From Armatimonadota bacterium (lineage in GTDB: Bacteria; Armatimonadota; JAAZEB01), in assembly GCA_016199585.1 (NCBI GenBank), contig JACQGM010000167.1:1-32808 (forward strand): a stretch of DNA of 32,808 nt. The letters are read 5' to 3'. Shown one piece after another: positions 255 to 23,262 of this stretch. A program made the position numbers and the translations under genes. The notes beneath the pieces were generated by a model. The model made no database searches. It saw nothing but the letters and a program-made list of their open reading frames with translations, and was not told the origin of the DNA. Positions within the stretch are counted from its first letter, which is position 1, and each line of letters opens with the position of its first letter.

Positions 255-3206
255 ATGATTGCTCGAATCCTCTCCCGGCTTTCGGCCCGATCCCGTCTCC
301 AGGTCGCTGTCGGGTGGATGCTCGTCCTGGCACTGGGGCAGCCGGTGGCCGCCGCGCCGGAGACCGAGATCGCGGCCGGCGACCTCCGCGTCGTGTTCAC
401 CGCCTACGACGGCGTCAACGCCGCCCGGGGGGTGCGTCTCTTCTGGCGGGACACGCCGCTCACCACGCGCTCCTCCGTCAACGTGGTGGCGCCGGGGTGG
501 CGAGAGACCTTCTTCGGCCTCGGGCGATCGCCGGGAGACGTCGCGGTCTCGGACGTGCCGGAGGGGAAGCGCCTGACGTTCCAGGCCGCCAATGACGCCT
601 TCGAGCTGGCGTACGTCGTGGAGGTGCTCTCCGGCAACCGGGCGGTGCTGGAGGTGAGCGGCACGCTGCGGAAGGACGTGCGAGCGGTGATGGAGTACGC
701 GGCGGGGTACCTCTCAGCGGTCGCGCTCGCGGGCCAGCCTTACGAGGCGCTGACCGCCAACGGGCCGCTCGCCGGTCGGCTGCCCTTCGCCGCCACGAGC
801 GCCGAGCTGAGCGCCGCGATGGTGACCCCGCCCCTGCGCCGCCTGCAGATCCGGTCGCGCTTCGGCACACTGCTGATCGAGGGACCCAGCGAGGGACCCG
901 GCCTCGACTTCTTCGATGCCCGGAAAATGCCCACCGCCTGGTTTCGGGAGCACCCGGTCTTCTGGCTCGGCTACTCCACGGCGCCGCTGAAGCCGGGGCA
1001 GACCTTCCGGTCGCGCATCACCGTGCAGTTCCTGCCTCTGGATGCCGCCGCGCGCCCCGAGCGCCCGGTGCCGCGCGTTGTGTCGCTGCCGACCCGGGAC
1101 GTGCCGGACGCGCGCCTTCCCGCGCCCCCCGATGGCCAGATCATCCCCGAGCCGCAGGAGAGGACCCCCGGGAAGGGGGAGTTCCGCATCACCGCGCGGA
1201 CCCGCATTGTGGATGACGGCACCGCCGCCGCCCGGCGCGCGGCGCGCGAGCTGCAAGAGCGCCTCCAGGACGCACACGGGGTCCGCGTGCCCCGGGCGCC
1301 GGCCGCCATCTTGCCCGAGCGCCGCGACGTGATTGTCATCGGCACGTTGGGCAGCCCCACGATGCGACGGTGGCTCTCCGAGACGCGCGCCCGGCCGGTC
1401 TCCCGCCCGGAGGGATACCTCCTTCAGGTCGCCCCGCGCCATGTCCTCCTGGCTGCCGCCGACGCGCGCGGAGTGCTGTACGGCGTGTTCTCCCTGCTCC
1501 AGATGGCGCGCGCGGGCGCGCAGGAGAATGGGAGCGCGTCCGGCGCCCTTCCACACTCCCACACCCCCACACTCCCACACACCCACACTCCCCTACCCCC
1601 ACACCCACCGGCCTTCCCCGCGGCCACCATCCGCGACTGGCCCGCGCTCCCCGTTCGGGGCGTCCACCTGCTGGCCGACCACTGGTCCGGGTTCCTGCAC
1701 CGGAAGTTGATCCGGGGCATCCTGGCGCCGCACAAGATCAACACGATCCTCCTGGAGTGCCAGTACGTGAAGTGGGATAGCCACCCCGAGCTGCACGTGC
1801 CTTGGGGAATGGAGAAGGAGGAGGTGCGCGCGCTCCTCGCCCTGGCGCGGGACTACCACATCGAGGTGATCCCGCTGGTGGAGACGCTCGGGCACGTGCG
1901 CTGGATGTTCGAGAACGACCAGCACCTCGATCTGGCCGAGGACCCCGAGGCCCGCTTCGCCTACTGCCCTTCCAACCCGAAGACCTACGACCTGGTGTTC
2001 GACGTTCTGGAGGAAGCGGTCGATCTCTTCGGGCGGCCGCGCTTCTTCCACATCGGGCACGACGAGTTCCTGAACCGCGGTAGGTTCGCCGCGGAAGGTC
2101 CTTGCAAGGGCAAGGCGATCACCGACTTGTTCGTGGCGGACACGCTGAAGCTGCGCGACTTCCTGGCGCAGCGCGGCGCGCGCACCCTCATCTGGGGCGA
2201 CGTGCTCCTCGGCCCGAAGGAGGCGGCCGACGCCACGCACGCCCCCAGCCTCGCGGAGGCGCGCCAGCTCCGCGAGCGCCTGCCGAAAGACATCCTGATC
2301 ACCGACTGGCACTACATCCCCGCCGCCTCCTATCCGAGCCTCGGCATCCTGCGCGACGCCGGCTTCGAGGTGTGGGCCGCCACCTGGCAGCGGCCGGAGA
2401 ATATCCACGGCTTCGCGCGCGCCGCTGCCGAGCGGGGCAGCGGGCTGATCCAGACCACCTGGACCGGCTACTACGGCAACCGCACCGCCCTGCGCCGTGA
2501 GTTCCCGCAGTTCGCCGCCTACGTGTTGGCCGCCGGGTATGCCTGGCGGCCGGACGGGCCGCCGCCGGAGACGGCGTCCCCGGCGGCGCGCCGCCGCTTC
2601 CGCGATGCCTGGCCCGGCTTCGTCGGCACTCCTCGCGCCGCCCCCGGCTTCACCCTGGACCTGGGGCCGGTCGCCAACCTGCCGTGGCGCGACACGTCCG
2701 ACCGCGATGGCTGGCTGGGCTATGGACCGGAGCACGACCTCTCGGCGCTCGCTCCGGGCGCGCACCGCCTGGGCGACACCCTCTTCCACCTACCCGAGGC
2801 GGGGAGGGCGGTCGCTGTGTCCGGAACGCTTCTCCCCTTCCACTATCCCGAGACGGCCACCGTGCCGGTAGGGCGGCGGGCGGGGCAGCTCGCGCTCCTG
2901 ATGGCCGCGGGGTGGGCGGTGGCCGAGAACCGGACGGTCGGGTGGGTGACGGTGCGCTACGCCGACGGCACCGAGCTGCCGGTGGAGCTGCTCTACGGCT
3001 GGAACATCCGCGCCGCGCACGACGCGCGCTCCGCCTTTCTGGCGCCCGTCGCCTGGGAGGGAAGAACGACCGGAGGCGAGACGCTGCACCTGGGCGCGTT
3101 GACACTGGGCAACCCCTTCCCGGACAAGGTCATCGCCGCCATCGAGCTGAGGTCCGCCGGCACCGAGGCTGCGCCCATCCTGTTCGCCGTGAGCGGGGTC
3201 GAGTGA
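255..3206 (+). CDS. Secreted glycoside hydrolase family 20-like beta-N-acetylhexosaminidase
   Basis: Signal-peptide-like N-terminus; GH20b-like domain (IIPEPQE...GYLLQVAPRHVLLAAADARGVLYGVFSLLQMAR); catalytic barrel with RGVHLLADHW, ETLGHVRWMF and FFHIGHDEF (Asp-Glu pair). Confidence 0.85.
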   Translation: MIARILSRLSARSRLQVAVGWMLVLALGQPVAAAPETEIAAGDLRVVFTAYDGVNAARGVRLFWRDTPLTTRSSVNVVAPGWRETFFGLGRSPGDVAVSDVPEGKRLTFQAANDAFELAYVVEVLSGNRAVLEVSGTLRKDVRAVMEYAAGYLSAVALAGQPYEALTANGPLAGRLPFAATSAELSAAMVTPPLRRLQIRSRFGTLLIEGPSEGPGLDFFDARKMPTAWFREHPVFWLGYSTAPLKPGQTFRSRITVQFLPLDAAARPERPVPRVVSLPTRDVPDARLPAPPDGQIIPEPQERTPGKGEFRITARTRIVDDGTAAARRAARELQERLQDAHGVRVPRAPAAILPERRDVIVIGTLGSPTMRRWLSETRARPVSRPEGYLLQVAPRHVLLAAADARGVLYGVFSLLQMARAGAQENGSASGALPHSHTPTLPHTHTPLPPHPPAFPAATIRDWPALPVRGVHLLADHWSGFLHRKLIRGILAPHKINTILLECQYVKWDSHPELHVPWGMEKEEVRALLALARDYHIEVIPLVETLGHVRWMFENDQHLDLAEDPEARFAYCPSNPKTYDLVFDVLEEAVDLFGRPRFFHIGHDEFLNRGRFAAEGPCKGKAITDLFVADTLKLRDFLAQRGARTLIWGDVLLGPKEAADATHAPSLAEARQLRERLPKDILITDWHYIPAASYPSLGILRDAGFEVWAATWQRPENIHGFARAAAERGSGLIQTTWTGYYGNRTALRREFPQFAAYVLAAGYAWRPDGPPPETASPAARRRFRDAWPGFVGTPRAAPGFTLDLGPVANLPWRDTSDRDGWLGYGPEHDLSALAPGAHRLGDTLFHLPEAGRAVAVSGTLLPFHYPETATVPVGRRAGQLALLMAAGWAVAENRTVGWVTVRYADGTELPVELLYGWNIRAAHDARSAFLAPVAWEGRTTGGETLHLGALTLGNPFPDKVIAAIELRSAGTEAAPILFAVSGVE
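1551..1609 (+). repeat. C-rich octamer-like repeat tract inside the GH20 CDS (reverse complement of GTGTGGGR units)
   Basis: ccacactcccacacccccacactcccacacacccacactcccc...; encodes the PHSHTPTLPHTHTPLPPHPP linker between the two GH20 domains. Confidence 0.75.
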
Positions 3207-5354: not shown

Positions 5355-7258
5355 GTCGGGCCTCACGATGCGTGCTCGCCCTGTGCGTTCTGAACGCGTG
5401 CTGTTCCGTCCCCGCGCGCGCGGACCTGGAGACGGCGCTCGAGAAGATCATCGGGCGCCAGGCGGCCACGGTCCTCTCCGAGCAGTACGGCTCGGAGAGC
5501 AACCCGGTATTGGTGGAGTGGGTGCGGCGGATTGGCGGGCGGGTCAGCGCCGCGAGTCCGCGCCGGGACGTGAAGTACCGCTTCCAGATCATCGAGATGA
5601 ACGAGCCGAACGCCCTGGCGCTCCCCGGGGGCTACATCCTCGTGACGAAGGGGCTGCTGGAGTTCGTCAATGACGACGATGAGCTGGCGGCCATCCTCGC
5701 GCACGAGGTGGGGCACGTCGCCGCGCGCCACGCCGTCGAGCAAGCCAGGCACCAGGTGGTGGCGGCGCTGCTGATCTCGACGATACGGAAGCAAGCGGGC
5801 GACGGGGCGGGGACCGCAGCCAGCCTGATGGACGCCCTCTTCGCGCTGCGGCACAGCCGGCACGACGAGCTGGAATCCGACCGCCTGGGGGCGGAGTACG
5901 CCGCGCGCTCCGGCTACGATCCGGCGGGGCTGGTCGCCTTCTTCGAGAAGCTCCGCAACTCGAAGAAGCCGTCGCTCGTGAGCCGCTTCCTGGCGACCCA
6001 CCCGCCCGCCGACGCGCGCATCGCCCGGCTGAAGGAGATCCCGTTCCTCAAAGAGACCCCGCCGGAAGTGCTCCTCGCCATCGGCGACCGCCTGGCCGCG
6101 GAGTGCCGCTACAACAAGGCGCTGGCGCGGTATTCCGAGGCGGCGAAGCAGCGACCGGGCGACGCCGCCGTGACCGCCCGGATCGCGGGCGTGCTCCTGG
6201 CGCAGGGGAAGCGCGCCGAGGCGCTCTCCCTCCGGCTCAGCGCCGGCCTGGATGCCCCCGCCGAGGCCGCGCCTCCCCCGGACTACCAGCGCCCCGACGG
6301 CGACTCGGAGCCCGCGCGCCAGGCCGTGGCCGCCGTGCTGGGCGACCTTGGGGAGCGCCAGAGGCAGCTCAACCGGCTTCTCCCGGAAGTGCAGAAGTCC
6401 CTGCGAAAGACCTGGGCGCGCCACCGCTGGACCGGGCGCCTCGAGGCGGCCTCGCTCGGCGCCCCGCAGGGCCTGAACTACCGCTGGCTTGCCCTGGCGA
6501 TGCACGCCGTCGTGCTCTCACGTGAGATTGACCGGCTGATTGACGGCGTGGGGCGGGCGGCGCGGATCGCGCCCGGCGCCCTGCAGCAGGCATCCTCGGT
6601 GTGTACCCTGGCCGCGAAGGAGAGCGGCACGGCGGCGGCGTTCCCGCGCGATCTTCTCTCCAGCATCGCCGGCGAGATGGACTCCGCCGGCCGCGAGAGC
6701 CTGGAGAGCATGGCGGAGGCGCGCAAGGCGCTCCCGGAGCTGGATGCCGCCGACCGGCTCGTGGCATCGGTGCTGGCCGGCCTGAACAGCGCCTACCTCG
6801 CCTCCTGGAACACGCACTGGGGGCACCTGGCAGTGCTGGAGGGCTTCCTGGAGCACGCCGGACGGCGGGTGGGCGCCGCGGACGCGCACGTGCTGCGGGC
6901 CTCGCAGAGCGCCGCGCGCTCCAGAGCGCGAGCGGAGCGCGCCGCGATTGACATGGCTGCGGCCGTCGCCACGCCGCGGGAGCGCGCCGTCTTCCGGGGC
7001 CTCCTGTGCGCCCGCCTGGGCGCCAGTGAGGAGCAGGCGGACGACGCGCTGGCTCAGGGCTACTCGCTGGGAGAGGCGGCGGTGATGCTTCTCTACGCCC
7101 GCAGCACGTCGCGGCCGGCGGCGACGCTGGCGGCGGCCCGTCGCCCGAACGCCACCTGGATCGAGACCGCCGAGAAGTTGGGCGTGCCCGCCGACGTGCA
7201 GGGCATTATCCTCCGGATGCTGCGCCGGAGCATCGAGGAGGAGCGCATCCACGGTTGA
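5351..7258 (+). CDS. M48 family metallopeptidase with TPR-like C-terminal region (tandem paralog)
   Basis: HEVGH motif (ILAHEVGHVAARHAV), NALALPGGYILVTKGLL, ELESDRLGAEYAARSGYDP. TTG start overlaps the upstream TGA (TTGA). Confidence 0.85.
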   Translation: MSRASRCVLALCVLNACCSVPARADLETALEKIIGRQAATVLSEQYGSESNPVLVEWVRRIGGRVSAASPRRDVKYRFQIIEMNEPNALALPGGYILVTKGLLEFVNDDDELAAILAHEVGHVAARHAVEQARHQVVAALLISTIRKQAGDGAGTAASLMDALFALRHSRHDELESDRLGAEYAARSGYDPAGLVAFFEKLRNSKKPSLVSRFLATHPPADARIARLKEIPFLKETPPEVLLAIGDRLAAECRYNKALARYSEAAKQRPGDAAVTARIAGVLLAQGKRAEALSLRLSAGLDAPAEAAPPPDYQRPDGDSEPARQAVAAVLGDLGERQRQLNRLLPEVQKSLRKTWARHRWTGRLEAASLGAPQGLNYRWLALAMHAVVLSREIDRLIDGVGRAARIAPGALQQASSVCTLAAKESGTAAAFPRDLLSSIAGEMDSAGRESLESMAEARKALPELDAADRLVASVLAGLNSAYLASWNTHWGHLAVLEGFLEHAGRRVGAADAHVLRASQSAARSRARAERAAIDMAAAVATPRERAVFRGLLCARLGASEEQADDALAQGYSLGEAAVMLLYARSTSRPAATLAAARRPNATWIETAEKLGVPADVQGIILRMLRRSIEEERIHG

Positions 7259-7310: not shown

Positions 7311-8048
7311 ATGTCTGAGGCGCTGCCGCCCCTTTCTCCGGAAGAGCTCCTGCGCCGGGGCGCTGCGGCGCTCGGGGTGCCCCTGGCGCCCGGCGAGGTA
7401 GAGCGATACCTCCGCTACGAGCGCGAGTTGCGCGATTGGAACGCGCGCATGAACCTCACCGCCGCCGCCGAGCCGGGCGAAGTCGTCGTCAAGCACATCC
7501 TCGATTCCCTCGCTTGCTTCCGGGTGGTGAGCGCGGGCGCCGGCGTGCGCGTCCTCGACGTGGGCACCGGCGCCGGCTTCCCCGGCATGGTGATCAAGAT
7601 CCACGCGCCCGAGACGCCGGTCACTCTGCTCGACAGCACGCGCAAGAAGCTCGCCTTCCTGGAGCACCTCTCCGATGTGCTGGGGCTCTCGGGCGTCGAG
7701 ACCGTACACGCCCGCGCCGAGGACGCCGGACGCGATCCCGGCTATCGCGAGCGGTTCGACCTGGTGGTGGCGCGGGCGGTGGCGGAGCTGCGGGTGCTGC
7801 TGGAGCTGTGCCTCCCCTTCGTGCGCGTGGGTGGTCAGTTCCTGGCGATGAAGGGTCCGCGGGGCGACGAGGAGATGGGCCCGGCCGCCCGGGCGCTCTC
7901 GCTGCTGGGGGGCGAGCGGGAGCGCGTGGAGTCCCTCTCCCTCCCCTTCGGTGCCGGCGAGCGCCGGCTGATCCTCATCCGCAAGCGCCGCCCCACCCCG
8001 AGGGCCTACCCCCGCAAGGCGGGCACGCCGGGGCGGTGGCCGTTGTGA
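7311..8048 (+). CDS. rsmG: 16S rRNA (guanine527-N7)-methyltransferase RsmG
   Basis: WNARMNLTA, KHILDSL, VLDVGTGAGFPGMVIKI, LLDSTRKKLAFLEHL, C-terminal YPRKAGTPGRWPL; all typical of RsmG/GidB. Confidence 0.96.
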   Translation: MSEALPPLSPEELLRRGAAALGVPLAPGEVERYLRYERELRDWNARMNLTAAAEPGEVVVKHILDSLACFRVVSAGAGVRVLDVGTGAGFPGMVIKIHAPETPVTLLDSTRKKLAFLEHLSDVLGLSGVETVHARAEDAGRDPGYRERFDLVVARAVAELRVLLELCLPFVRVGGQFLAMKGPRGDEEMGPAARALSLLGGERERVESLSLPFGAGERRLILIRKRRPTPRAYPRKAGTPGRWPL

Positions 8049-8131
8049 GGGGTATGGGGGTGTGGGAGTGTGGGAGTGTGGGCGCACCGGATGCCCCATA
8101 CCCCCATACTCCCATACTCCCATACCCCCAT
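8049..8131. repeat. G-rich/C-rich inverted octamer repeat element filling the rsmG-GT4 intergenic region
   Basis: GGGTATGGGGGTGTGGGAGTGTGGGAGTGTGGG, then gcgcaccggatg, then CCCCATACCCCCATACTCCCATACTCCCATACCCCCA. Confidence 0.85.
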
Positions 8132-8145
8132 ATGAGGAGCGTGCA

Positions 8146-9342
8146 TTGGCTGACGGGATCCGGGTAACGCACATCCTGGAAGCGACCCTCGGCGGCACGG
8201 GGCGGCACCTCGCGGACGTGGGGTGCGGCCTGGCGGCGGCCGGATTCGCGGTGGAGGCGGTGATCTCCCTGCGCCGCGCCGAGGATTTCGCCCCCAAGGC
8301 GCAGCGGTTGGCGGAGGCGGGCGTCACCCTCACCGAGGTGCCGATGGCGCGCGCCATCGCCCCGGCCGACGACGCCCGAGCCCTGTGGCGGCTGTACCGT
8401 CACCTGCGCCGCTCGCAGCCCGACCTGGTTCACGCGCACTCCTCCAAAGCCGGCATCCTGGGGCGGGTCGCCGCCCGTTGGGCGCGCGTGCCCGTCGTCG
8501 TCTACTCGCCCCACGCCTTCGCCTTCCAGATGCGTTCGGGGTATGCCCCACGCACCCTCTACCTGCGCCTGGAGCGGCTGGCCGGGCGGTGGACCGACTG
8601 CCTGGTGGCCGTCTCGCACGCCGAAGCCGACCTGGCCGCGGCGGCCGGCCTGCTCCCGAAGGCGCGGATCGCTGTGATCGAGAACGGGGTGGACCCGGCA
8701 GAGACCGTCTCGCGCGCGGAGGGCGCCGCCGTCCGGCAGGCATTGGGCATCGCCCCGCAGGCGCCGGTGGTCCTCTTCGCCGCGCGTCTGGTGGAGCAGA
8801 AGGCGCCGGAGGTCCTCGTTCGCGCGGCCCTGCGGGTGCTGGAGCGCCATCCAGACGCCGTGTTCCTCCTCGCCGGTGAAGGCCCTCTACGCCCGCTGCT
8901 GGAGCAGGAGATCGCTCGTGCCAACGGTGAGCCGAACGTGCGCCTGCTTGGCTACCGTCCTGATGCCGCTCGCCTCTACGCCGCCGCCGACCTCTTCGCT
9001 CTCCCCTCGCGCTGGGAAGGCCTCCCCTACGCCCTGCTCGAGGCGATGGCCGCCGGCCTGCCGGTGGTCGCCTCCGACATTCCTGCCATCGCCGAGGCGG
9101 CGCCATGCGGCGAGACCGCTCTCCTCGTCCCTCCCGACGATCCCGGCGCCCTGGCCGAAGCCCTCGAATGCCTGATCCGGGAACCCGACGATGCCCGCGC
9201 CCTCGGCGCCGCCGGCCGCGAGCGCGTGCGCCGATGCTACACCCTCGACCGGCAGGTGGCGCGATTGGGCGCGCTCTACCAAAGGCTGTGCGGTTTCGAC
9301 GTGGGCGCAGAGCGGCCGGGTGCCTCGGGCTGGCGCCGGTAG
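8146..9342 (+). CDS. GT4-family glycosyltransferase (GT-B fold)
   Basis: VTHILEATLGGTGRHLADV..., HAHSSKAGILGR, VVLFAARLVEQKAPEVLVRA, LFALPSRWEGLPYALLEAMAAGLPVVASDIPAIAE. TTG at 8146 preceded by GAGGAG is preferred over the ORF-track start 8062, which would translate the repeat. Confidence 0.88.
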   Translation: MADGIRVTHILEATLGGTGRHLADVGCGLAAAGFAVEAVISLRRAEDFAPKAQRLAEAGVTLTEVPMARAIAPADDARALWRLYRHLRRSQPDLVHAHSSKAGILGRVAARWARVPVVVYSPHAFAFQMRSGYAPRTLYLRLERLAGRWTDCLVAVSHAEADLAAAAGLLPKARIAVIENGVDPAETVSRAEGAAVRQALGIAPQAPVVLFAARLVEQKAPEVLVRAALRVLERHPDAVFLLAGEGPLRPLLEQEIARANGEPNVRLLGYRPDAARLYAAADLFALPSRWEGLPYALLEAMAAGLPVVASDIPAIAEAAPCGETALLVPPDDPGALAEALECLIREPDDARALGAAGRERVRRCYTLDRQVARLGALYQRLCGFDVGAERPGASGWRR

Positions 9343-12395: not shown

Positions 12396-13259
12396 ATGAA
12401 GTTCTCAGCAGTCACGCACGCGGTGGGGCACGCCCTCTCCCTCGAGGAGACGCTGGCCACCATCAAGGGGATCGGCTTTGACGGGGTTCTGTTCCTCACC
12501 AACCGGAACTCCGAGCCGGTTCGCCCCGACGGCACCTGCCCGAAGCCGTTCCCCGACGTGCTCCGCTCCGAGCCGGAGCACGTCCTCAAGGCGTTCCGCA
12601 ACGCCGGCCTGGAGATCTCCGCCCTCCACTACTCGGGGAAGCTGGACGTGGAGAGCGACGAGGGCGCCGACGAGAGCGTCGCCGGCCTCAAGGAGTATGC
12701 CGACTACGCGCTGGCCCTGGGGTGCCGCTACCTGACCCACGCGGTGCCCTCCGCCGGCCGCAGCCGCGTGCCGACCGAGGAGAAGGCGCCGCAGATCCGG
12801 CGCTTCGCCGGTATCATGAACCGGGTGGCGGATGCCTACGCCGACCGGGGCCTGAAGGTCGGGTGCGACATTCACCACCGGGCGGTTGTCGAGGGCCTCG
12901 ACGACTGCCGGCTGCTGGTGGACTCGATGCCCTGCAAGAATGCGGGCCTGCTGATGAACATCGGCCACCTCACCACCGCCGAGGCCTACGGCTGGCTCCT
13001 GGTGGATGAGTACCCCGAACGCATCCCGGTGGTGGGTTGGAAGGATCACAGCCTGGCGACGGACCGGCCGCGGCCGATGTGGTCCATCGAGTTGGGCACC
13101 GGCCACAGCCCGTTTGAGCTGTACGTCCGGCGCTTCAAGCAGCACCCGGCGGAGCGCGTTCACCTCGTCAACGCCGAGAATGTGGTGGACGCGGAGCGCG
13201 TGGCGGTGCTCACCCGCAGCCTGGCGTACATCCGCCGCCTGTGGGAGACGGTAGCGTAG
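12396..13259 (+). CDS. Xylose isomerase-like TIM-barrel (sugar phosphate isomerase/epimerase family) protein, copy 1
   Basis: MKFSAVTHAVGHALSLEETLATIKGIGFDGVLFL... LLMNIGHLTTAEAYGWLLVDEYPERIPVVGWKDHSL; typical family layout. Confidence 0.8.
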   Translation: MKFSAVTHAVGHALSLEETLATIKGIGFDGVLFLTNRNSEPVRPDGTCPKPFPDVLRSEPEHVLKAFRNAGLEISALHYSGKLDVESDEGADESVAGLKEYADYALALGCRYLTHAVPSAGRSRVPTEEKAPQIRRFAGIMNRVADAYADRGLKVGCDIHHRAVVEGLDDCRLLVDSMPCKNAGLLMNIGHLTTAEAYGWLLVDEYPERIPVVGWKDHSLATDRPRPMWSIELGTGHSPFELYVRRFKQHPAERVHLVNAENVVDAERVAVLTRSLAYIRRLWETVA

Positions 13260-13270
13260 GAGGCCGGGCG

Positions 13271-14134
13271 ATGAAGTTCTCAGTAGTCACGCACGCCGTG
13301 GGGCATAGCCTCTCCTTCGAGGAGACGCTGGCGACCATCAAGGAGATCGGCTTCGAGGGTGTCCTGCTGCTCACCAGCCGGGACTCCGAGCCGGTTCGCC
13401 CCGACGGCACCTGTCCGAAGCCGTTCCCCGACGTGCTCCACTCCGAGCCGGAGCACGTCCTCAAGGCGATGAGCAACGCCGGCCTGCGGATCGCCGCCAT
13501 CCACTACTCCGGGAAGATTGACGTGGAGAGCGACGAGGGCGCCGACAAGAGCGTCGCCGACATCAAGGAGTACGCGGATTTCGCCGTCGCCCTCGGGTGT
13601 GGCGCCATGACCCTCCCGGTGCCCTCCTGCAGCCGGACGCACGTGCCGACCGAGGAGAAGGCGCCGCAGATCCGGCGCTACGGGAGCATCATGAACCGGG
13701 TGGCGGAGGCGTACACCGACCACGGCCTGAAGCTCGCCTGCGACGTCCACTACCGGGCTTACATCGAGGGCCTCGACGATTGCCGCCTCCTTGTGCAGTC
13801 CATGCCTTGCGCCAACGCCTGTCTGGGAATGAATATCGGCCATTTCACCACCGCCCAGGCTTACGGCTGGCTCCTGGTGGACGATTACCCCGATCGCATC
13901 CCGCTGGTTGGCTGGAAGGACCACAGCCTGGCCCCCGATCGGCCGCGGCCGATGTGGTCCATCGAGCTGGGCACCGGCCACAGCCCGTTCGAGCTCTACA
14001 TCCGGCGCTTCAAGCGGCACCCGGCGGAGCGTCAACACCTGATCAACTGCGAGGACGTGGTGGACGCGGAGCGCGTGCCGGTTCTCAGACGCAGCCTGGC
14101 CTACCTGAGCCGCCTGTGGGAGACGGTGGAGTAG
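13271..14134 (+). CDS. Xylose isomerase-like TIM-barrel protein, copy 2 (tandem paralog)
   Basis: Same length (864 nt) and highly similar to copy 1: MKFSVVTHAVGHSLSFEETLATIKEIGFEGVLLL... Confidence 0.8.
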   Translation: MKFSVVTHAVGHSLSFEETLATIKEIGFEGVLLLTSRDSEPVRPDGTCPKPFPDVLHSEPEHVLKAMSNAGLRIAAIHYSGKIDVESDEGADKSVADIKEYADFAVALGCGAMTLPVPSCSRTHVPTEEKAPQIRRYGSIMNRVAEAYTDHGLKLACDVHYRAYIEGLDDCRLLVQSMPCANACLGMNIGHFTTAQAYGWLLVDDYPDRIPLVGWKDHSLAPDRPRPMWSIELGTGHSPFELYIRRFKRHPAERQHLINCEDVVDAERVPVLRRSLAYLSRLWETVE

Positions 14135-15476: not shown

Positions 15477-16250
15477 ATGCGATTTGAGAGCTACCATCCT
15501 TCCGTGCGCCGCCGCGAGCGCCGGGGCTTCACCCTGATCGAGTTGCTCGTGGTCATAGCGATCATCGCTATCCTGGCGGCCATCCTGTTCCCCGTCTTCT
15601 CCCGTGCCAGGGAGAGAGCGCGGGCCGCAAGCTGCCTGAGCAACATGAAGCAGCTCGGCACCGCCTTCAACATGTACCTGCAGGACTACGACGCCGTGAT
15701 CATCGAGCAGACCCGGATAAACAATGTCGCGGCCCTCGGAAACGCCCTGTGGCCGCTCCTGGCACAGCCGTACGTGAAGAGCTGGGATGCCTTCAAGTGC
15801 CCCTCGTTCTCCATCCTCAGCACCTACTACTCCTCGGCCGCCGAGGGCCTGAAGAGAACGAACCTGAGCTACACGTACTCCAAGTCCTGCAAGGGCTACT
15901 GGGGGCTGAATCCTGCCTACAACAACAAGCAGGGGTTCTGCACGGACTGCTTCACCCTCCCAATCACCGACGCGATGGTGGAGGACCCGGCCGGCACCAT
16001 CTGGCTGGCGGAGATGGGCAGCCGAAGCACCGGACCGCTTGAGTTCTGTGTCCGCCCCGGCATCAACCTCGCCTACGAGTGGCACAACGACTACCACATG
16101 AACACCTACATGAACGGTGCCTCCGGCTACTGGTGCCGCGTGGGGAACCCCCACTTCGATGGCTTCAACGCCGTCTTCGGCGACGGGCACGCCAAGTGGG
16201 TGAAGTGGAAGAGCGGCACCCCGCGCATGTACACCATCGACGCGGACTGA
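15477..16250 (+). CDS. Pseudopilin-like protein, prepilin N-terminal cleavage/methylation domain, copy 1
   Basis: [32 protein letters not shown] type IV pilin-like N-terminus; C-terminal [22 protein letters not shown] 15477 preceded by AAAGGAG. Confidence 0.92.
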
Positions 16251-16307: not shown

Positions 16308-16362
16308 GCACTGCGGCTGCGGTACTGCCCCCCGGCGGGGGGCAGTACCGCAGCCGCAGTGC
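16308..16362. repeat. 55-bp perfect palindrome (27-bp arms, 1-nt centre)
   Basis: gcactgcggctgcggtactgccccccg-g-cggggggcagtaccgcagccgcagtgc. Confidence 0.95.
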
Positions 16363-21485: not shown

Positions 21486-23198
21486 ATGGAAACCACAACC
21501 CGGTTCCTGCCCGCCTGGGCGGAAGAGCTGCGCCAGAAGTACCTGGCAGGGGTTGCCAACACCTTCCTGATCCACTTCAACGTGTTCGACCTCGTGCCCT
21601 ACGAGAGCGACTACGTCTCGCTGAAGGACTTCTTCCATCGTTTCTTCGAGGGGAAGAAGGACATCATCGCCTTCTACAACGTCAGCGAGGGCCTGACCTT
21701 CGCCACGGATGAGATGCGGCGCAAGTTCTTCAGCCTGCCCGGGCTGCGCGACGAGTCGTACGCGGCCGGAATCAAGCCGGTGCCGAAGCAGGCGTCGGTG
21801 GTCCTCTGGCTCCTCGAGCGCGCCCTGCAGGCGCCCAAGGCGAGCATCGCCGTGGTGATTGACTTCCTGGAGACGGTGGCGCCGGCGGGGCAGATCTCCT
21901 TCCTCTCCGCCGAAGACCGCCAGAACGTGATCACCCTCCAGCGCTGGGCCTCGAACCAGTACCTGCTGGAGTTGTCCGACACCATCGTCATCACCATCGC
22001 CGCCAAGCTGGGCGACGTTCACGAGAGCCTCCGCTCGGCGCCGCAGGTGGACCTGCAGCAGGTGCCCCGCCCCGACCTCGGGGAGCGCCTCGCCTTCATC
22101 CGCTATCTCGTCGAGCGCCAGGGCGCGGCGCTCGCCCCCGACATGTCCATGGAGCGTCTGGCGGGCCTCACGGCCGGCCTGAACCGCCAGAACCTGGCCA
22201 ACCTCCACAAGCTGGCCCGGCGGGAGAGCAAGCCTCTCGACTACGAGCTGGTGCGCGACACCAAGAAGGAGATCCTCCAGGACGAATCCGCCGGCCTGCT
22301 GGAGGTGGTGGAACCGAAACACGGCCTGGAGAGCATCGGCGGCCTGAGCTACATCAAGGATCGCCTGATGAAGATCGCCCGCTACATGCGCGAGGGGAAC
22401 ACCAAGCGCGTGCCGATGGCCCTCGCCTTCGGGGGACCTCCCGGCACGGGCAAGACCGCGGTCGCCTTCGCCTTCGCCAAGGAATCGGGCGTCAACTGCG
22501 TCATCCTCAAGGAGTCGCGCGAGATGTGGGTCGGCTCCAGCGAGCGCAACCAGGAGTACGTCTTCCGCCTGATCGAGGCGATGGCGCCGGTGATCGTCAT
22601 CGTGGACGAGGCGGACCAGAGCGAGGGCGCGCGCGGCAGCATGTCCGACTCCGAGGTGGACAAGCGCCTCTGGGCGCAGAAGATCCGCTTCATGGGCGAC
22701 GCGGCGCACCGCGGGCGGATCATCTTCATCTTCACCAGCAACCGCCTCGACCTGATTGACGTGGCGATGAAGCGCCGCGGGCGCATTGACCAGATCATCC
22801 CCTTCCTCTACCTGGAAGACGACATGCGCCCCGCCATCTTCCAGGCGATCATGAGGCGGGAGAACATCCCCTACGATGTGAAGGAGTGGCCGCCGATCAC
22901 CGCCGCCACCGCGCGCTTCTCCGGCGCCGATATCGAGTCCGTCGTCCTCAACGCCGACGAGATCGCCGACGAGGAAGACGCTTCCGCCGTTACCGACCGC
23001 CACCTCCTCGCCGCCCTCGACGACTTCATCCAGGCGCGCAACGAGGATATGATCCGCTACATGGAGCTCCTCGCTCTCACCGACTGCTCCACCCGCAGCA
23101 TGCTCCCGGAATCGCTGCGCGACACCTTCGACCGCAACGAGGCGCTGGCCGAGCTGGAGGAGCTGCGCACCAAGCTGCGAATCGAGGGGCTGGTGTAG
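21486..23198 (+). CDS. AAA+ ATPase with degenerate N-terminal AAA-like half (Ycf46-like architecture)
   Basis: GGPPGTGKTAVAFAFA (Walker A), PVIVIVDEADQ (Walker B), FTSNRLDLIDVAMKRRGRIDQII. ATG 21486 with upstream GGAGG preferred over ORF-track start 21297. Confidence 0.82.
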   Translation: METTTRFLPAWAEELRQKYLAGVANTFLIHFNVFDLVPYESDYVSLKDFFHRFFEGKKDIIAFYNVSEGLTFATDEMRRKFFSLPGLRDESYAAGIKPVPKQASVVLWLLERALQAPKASIAVVIDFLETVAPAGQISFLSAEDRQNVITLQRWASNQYLLELSDTIVITIAAKLGDVHESLRSAPQVDLQQVPRPDLGERLAFIRYLVERQGAALAPDMSMERLAGLTAGLNRQNLANLHKLARRESKPLDYELVRDTKKEILQDESAGLLEVVEPKHGLESIGGLSYIKDRLMKIARYMREGNTKRVPMALAFGGPPGTGKTAVAFAFAKESGVNCVILKESREMWVGSSERNQEYVFRLIEAMAPVIVIVDEADQSEGARGSMSDSEVDKRLWAQKIRFMGDAAHRGRIIFIFTSNRLDLIDVAMKRRGRIDQIIPFLYLEDDMRPAIFQAIMRRENIPYDVKEWPPITAATARFSGADIESVVLNADEIADEEDASAVTDRHLLAALDDFIQARNEDMIRYMELLALTDCSTRSMLPESLRDTFDRNEALAELEELRTKLRIEGLV

Positions 23199-23222: not shown

Positions 23223-23262
23223 GGCCCTTCGACGTACTGCCTGGGCCCTTCGACGTACTGCC
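23223..23262 (+). repeat. Two-copy tandem 19-nt repeat (21-nt period)
   Basis: ggcccttcgacgtactgcc at 23223-23241 and 23244-23262. Confidence 0.9.

Follow-up and report, generated by a model that had tools for sequence, protein, structure and literature searches.

The rsmG–GT4 spacer

We analyzed a 32,808-nucleotide contig of an Armatimonadota bacterium (JACQGM010000167.1; hereafter the window), in which the spacer between rsmG and a GT4 glycosyltransferase gene, positions 8049-8132, is built of a convergent pair of arrays, both made of the degenerate octamer GTRTGGGR and separated by a 12-nt core (Table 1). On one side the element abuts the rsmG stop codon TGA, and on the other a single base separates it from the GT4 Shine–Dalgarno sequence, so that it occupies the spacer. 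This position had been described in an initial annotation, and both coordinates and sequence were as given there. Its statement that both strands carry G4-capable tracts also held: canonical G4 motifs were found at 8049-8082 on the plus strand and at 8094-8129 on the minus strand. The proposed pairing of the two halves was borne out by the inverted-repeat arms (8049-8082 and 8095-8128, 85% complementary) and by a strong predicted RNA fold of -73.5 kcal/mol, compared with -38.4 +/- 4.0 in dinucleotide shuffles (z = -8.85), but the pairing is imperfect, with 29 Watson–Crick, 4 G–T, and 1 A–C pairs in the ungapped arm register.

Table 1. Features of the window discussed in the text (for arrays, the strand is the G-rich one)
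Feature	Positions	Strand	Remarks
rsmG (16S rRNA methyltransferase G)	7311-8048	+	stop TGA 8046-8048; Pfam GidB 3.4e-47; sequence
G-rich arm, four GTRTGGGR units	8049-8082	+	canonical G4 motif on +
Core CGCACCGGATGC between the arms	8083-8094	+	locus-specific; other copies lack it
C-rich arm, about five units	8095-8132	-	G-rich on -; canonical G4 motif on -
GT4 Shine–Dalgarno GAGGAG	8134-8139	+	1 nt past the element; sequence
GT4 glycosyltransferase gene	8146-9342	+	likely start TTG 8146; Pfam Glyco_trans_1_4 3.3e-38; ORF and start by sequence
Second octamer array, single, seven units	1550-1604	-	inside GH20 gene 318-3206

Allowing up to 3 mismatches, we counted 20 two-octamer matches in the window against 4.2 expected, a number that none of 100 shuffles reached. 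A second array, overlooked in the initial annotation, is located in a GH20 gene, where the GH20b domain ends and before the catalytic barrel; it has no partner and is C-rich on the coding strand. A search against Rfam gave no match at gathering score in the window.

The window holds other repeats. An inverted repeat of two perfectly matching 26-bp arms and a 3-nt loop (16308-16362) lies in a long intergenic region past a gene ending at 16250, two adjacent predicted genes carry similar 27-nt tandem repeats (CTCCGAGCCGTTCCCCCGACGGCACC; 12509-12575 and 13383-13450), and a 21-nt unit is present in nearly two perfect tandem copies (23223-23262) just past a gene ending at 23198.

Dispersal within the genome and across phyla

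The initial annotation had called the element dispersed and had named a lack of further genomic copies as a possible refutation. Copies were found and the idea survived: in the genome of the window (G000; 5.38 Mb in 449 contigs), the exact three-unit pattern gave 75 matches, compared with 10 for a reversed control, and these fall into 39 places when counted from the match list. As 15 of the 39 places are no more than about 60 bp away from the end of a contig, the assembly breaks at the element and the true copy number is probably higher. The layout of arm, core, and arm recurs in other copies. The core itself is a different matter: it differs in each hairpin examined in the genome, arm lengths vary as well, and the 12-nt core cannot be considered part of the element. 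The suggested query of arrays flanking GGGCGCACCGGATGCC would consequently recover the rsmG–GT4 copy only.

Outside this genome, the octamer has been amplified in a small number of scattered lineages and is absent from most of their relatives. Among 60 relatives, only G002 and G045 carried a three-unit array, and the exact hairpin was found in 2 of the 291 genomes searched within the phylum, G000 included. Scanned contigs with the octamer hairpin came from metagenome-assembled genomes (MAGs) of Chloroflexi, Anaerolineae, Latescibacterota, Chloracidobacterium (Acidobacteria), Bacteroidetes, and others, and seven further MAGs had between 4 and 166 exact array matches per whole genome, G061 being the richest (166). 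A search around the Chloroflexi carrier G062, covering 60 genomes including itself, added one other carrier (2/60). Every carrier is a MAG, and low copy counts in some genomes could partly represent binning strays; such strays cannot account for G000, G061, and G062, where copies with ordinary flanks number in the dozens. Among the papers listed in a literature search with the octamer string, all were unrelated.

Order, placement, and polarity

The order of the two arrays is close to invariant. In G062, pairs with the G-rich array first gave 48 + 48 = 96 matches and pairs with the C-rich array first 1 + 1 = 2; the seven other carriers (G000 included) had no exact C-first match. In a looser array scan, four C-first groups appeared among 178 elements.

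Placement statistics were computed from these 178 non-redundant elements of eight genomes, with genes called by a simple home-made hexamer-based finder, so that gene starts are approximate whereas stop codons were read directly. Of the paired elements, 59 were located in co-directional, 9 in convergent, and 3 in divergent spacers, even though 22% of all spacer bases belong to divergent spacers (p = 4.5e-5). In 31 of 56 co-directional pairs the element starts within 6 nt of the upstream stop, while placement anywhere in the same spacer would give 16.5 +/- 2.7; part of this adjacency arises because the Shine–Dalgarno sequence occupies the other side of short spacers. With the element removed, 65% of the occupied spacers in G062 are shorter than 40 nt, compared with 5% for length-weighted random placement, and the proportions in G061 (37% vs 3%) and G000 (33% vs 7%) deviate in the same direction. 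The junctions affected lie within operons and include hydrogenase small–large subunit, TadB–TadC-like, two ABC ATPases, and phosphoglycerate kinase–PPDK-like.

An element of this kind could end or slow transcription past rsmG, acting as a terminator or pause site through its hairpin or its G4. The post-stop position, the very strong hairpin, and the occupancy of convergent spacers all agree with such a function. At the rsmG–GT4 element, though, there is no U-tract and no terminator-like site, the GT4 Shine–Dalgarno follows after 1 nt with no sigma-70-like promoter found nearby, and many copies lie within operons, as at the hydrogenase junction; we therefore regard termination or pausing as unlikely. 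A classical intrinsic terminator was rejected, the stem-loop having no T tract.

Arrays without a partner have a polarity of their own. Of the 21 located behind stop codons, 18 have their G-rich strand as the sense strand (18:3, p = 0.0015); of the 25 within genes, 22 are C-rich on the coding strand (22:3, p = 0.00016), and all five that lie only near starts are C-sense. A matching rule has been reported for the GGGAATC repeats of Xanthomonas (PMC4692102). Since there is no second arm, hairpin symmetry does not explain this bias, and a polarity set relative to the gene points to the transcript. The C-sense arrays within genes can be explained as tolerable Pro/His/Thr/Ser linkers.

Origin of units and arms

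Two positions of the octamer, 3 and 8, are A or G at close to coin-flip frequencies. The other positions appear 91-99% conserved, a figure inflated because the loci were found by pattern. At position 3, the agreement between arms was no better than chance in any genome (G062 43/91, G061 24/52, G000 33/68). The arms are thus independent and not copies of each other, and fold-back or arm-to-arm copying, which showed no excess identity at the free purines, was rejected. Adjacent units of the same array agreed at chance level in G062 (120/241, 0.50 expected) and G061 (103/206, 0.51 expected), and neighbors that are independent argue that the arrays of these two genomes did not arise by simple slippage. 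In G000, adjacent units were alike at position 3 in 149 of 208 cases (0.56 expected), and a weaker resemblance was present in the smaller genomes when pooled; slippage may therefore contribute to the arrays of G000.

Arms could also have been written anew. If a telomerase-like process extended the two 3' ends at a chromosomal break with G-rich repeats before they were joined, the product would have the G-first order, independent arms, and variable arm lengths and cores, all without a transposase. We consider this route very unlikely; neither a candidate enzyme nor a template RNA was found for it, and it leaves the free choice of A or G at two octamer positions unexplained. A partial precedent is DRT10, a bacterial reverse transcriptase that makes tandem-repeat DNA of 9-nt repeats, similar in size to the present unit; the part of the source drawn on here does not mention integration of this DNA (PMC12632851). 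A scan of about 1.7 Mb for reverse-transcriptase motifs gave one clear enzyme, in a Chloracidobacterium MAG (L059:4574-6025, best match the retron type XIII model), where it adjoins an octamer hairpin at 6103-6174. One case among loci picked for their elements could be due to chance and is not evidence for a reverse transcriptase as the writer of the arrays.

Sister repeats, empty sites, and mobility

The same architecture occurs with other words. In the same genomes we found sister hairpins behind stop codons whose arms are tandem copies of words such as GGTGGTTR (G000 and G062), TAGTTGNN, AACGTTG, and ATTACCA. More post-stop hairpins with tandem arms were seen at L109:2171-2300, L121:1586-1663 and 2783-2859, and L126:1334-1438, and in G062 at L216, L217, L222, and L229. 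The arm words of these further hairpins (GGTGGTTG, TCGGATCGG, AACGTTG, GCAGATT, TAGTTGNN, and ATTACCA) outline a whole class beyond GTRTGGGR. Two words may also be joined in one repeat: sequences resembling CATGAAGGACCATGAAGAG directly precede the octamer array at the G061 loci L235 and L242, and CATGAAGGATCTGAAGAG does so in an unrelated Bacteroidetes MAG (L094), giving composite two-word repeats common to different phyla.

One clean empty site was recovered, and it belongs to a sister repeat. In G000 (C219, L129:632-713) a GGTGGTTG hairpin stands between the TAG and the Shine–Dalgarno GGAGAG of adjacent genes, whereas at the matching site in G001 (L269:10190-10230) GGAGAG directly follows TAG. 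We found no blunt empty site for GTRTGGGR itself. There is no orthologous rsmG spacer to compare, because the gene downstream of rsmG is not GT4 in either of two same-family relatives; at the tadB–tadC and hydrogenase junctions the relatives lack the octamer, but their spacers align uncleanly. The hydrogenase small–large junction of relatives (L304, L305, and L307; G002 and G001) holds different predicted hairpins, as if repeatedly acquired.

These observations bear on the possibility of a REP/REPIN- or MITE-like element moved by a transposase (RAYT, Y1_Tnp). Intergenic hairpins in many copies and with a patchy distribution fit such an element, and Y1_Tnp (PF01797) is present in G000, G062, and other genomes. 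Against it, Y1_Tnp was not found in G061, despite its 166 copies, nor in G064 or G067, and RAYT/REP activity was rejected as the general driver. The variation of cores and arm lengths means that copies share no common interior as those of a MITE would, and the only blunt empty site, that of the sister repeat, shows no target duplication. Transposase-driven movement is in our view most improbable.

A possible role in the transcript

We consider the rsmG–GT4 element to be one copy of a lineage-amplified pair of G-rich short tandem repeats, and the chances as about even that it functions, once transcribed, as a hairpin or G4 between cistrons, adjusting RNA stability or reinitiation. From its place and polarity we infer that the element is co-transcribed with its operon and works at the RNA level. 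The transcript would then contain a long imperfect hairpin or an RNA G4 beginning 0-6 nt past the stop codon; this structure could protect the upstream message against 3'-5' decay and impede the passage of ribosomes between cistrons, and the outcome would be a tuned expression ratio of the two operon genes.

If pairing in the sense RNA were selected, G–U mismatches between the arms should exceed A–C mismatches, because the two swap between strands. In 52 elements we counted 109 G–U and 122 A–C mismatches, giving no signal of selection on sense-strand pairing, and found no co-variation between arms. The outcome speaks clearly against selection on exact pairing; it is compatible with an effect of an RNA G4, or of the hairpin, which is long with or without perfect pairing. 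A further point against a role in RNA is that a single array, which has no capacity to form a hairpin, shows the same placement.

The main rival of a role in RNA, and a strong one, is neutral spread with purging. According to this explanation, a neutral or selfish repeat arises or inserts anywhere, selection spares the copies in spacers and protein linkers only, and the host gains no benefit. The lack of pairing selection and of arm co-variation is in line with it, as are the patchy distribution (2 of 291 phylum genomes and 2 of 60 around G062), the array between two domains of the GH20 gene, and the hydrogenase junction, where the hairpins of relatives differ widely in sequence. It predicts, however, that long spacers should be the most commonly occupied, while the residual spacers are short, most clearly in G062, and it does not predict the post-stop sense polarity of the single arrays. 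The explanation fails on these two counts unless insertion itself favors transcribed junctions; an insertion bias instead of function could indeed lie behind the preference for short spacers. Weighing both sides, we rate neutral spread as possible, if somewhat doubtful.

The same octamer, in the same order, polarity, and post-stop place, recurs in several phyla and is missing from most relatives of its carriers, which poses the question of how a word of no known coding value enters dozens of operon junctions. With independent arms, fold-back copying, which would have been the easiest origin, is excluded, and the unit independence seen in two genomes speaks against simple slippage in these. If the hairpin does affect RNA, it would be a cheap and widespread means of resetting gene ratios inside operons.

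Comparison with known repeats

REP elements and REPINs are likewise dispersed intergenic hairpins, and REPs often lie behind stop codons. Whereas a REP has a fixed palindromic sequence and is linked to a RAYT transposase, the GTRTGGGR pairs have variable cores and arm lengths and a main carrier in which Y1_Tnp was not found. The TAACTGA repeats of Beggiatoaceae, Cyanobacteria, and Bacteroidetes provide another example of one short intergenic unit shared across distant lineages, and one without a known spreading mechanism; they differ in not being G-rich, in being direct and hardly ever inverted, and in that most of those in the main carrier are found shortly before start codons (PMC4679880). 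The GGGGA(C/T)T repeats of Nostoc and the cyanobacterial STRRs are G-rich, short, tandem, and intergenic as well, but are heptamers, and inverted pairs are few in Nostoc (PMC4692102).

The closest likeness is to the GGGAATC repeats of Xanthomonas, which are also dispersed G-rich tandem arrays with G4 motifs. They form 70-75 convergent inverted pairs per genome, lie between aligned ORFs with few between divergent ones, are found within 50 bp of a stop codon and on the sense strand, and most of them are reported to be transcribed (PMC4692102). To the initial annotation, the octamer–core–octamer design had looked like a distinct dispersed element; the dispersal stands, but the novelty was overstated, as paired convergent G-rich repeats near stops were already described in Xanthomonas. 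Common to both are a G-rich unit of 6-9 nt with a G4 motif, convergent pairs, proximity to stops on the sense strand, and few copies in divergent spacers. GTRTGGGR differs in being an octamer with two free purine positions rather than a heptamer, in occurring in other phyla, and in often taking up, as a pair, the whole of a short operon spacer. As the unit does not fit GGGAATC or GGGANTN, we class GTRTGGGR as a variant of this kind of repeat and not as a member of the GGGAATC family itself.
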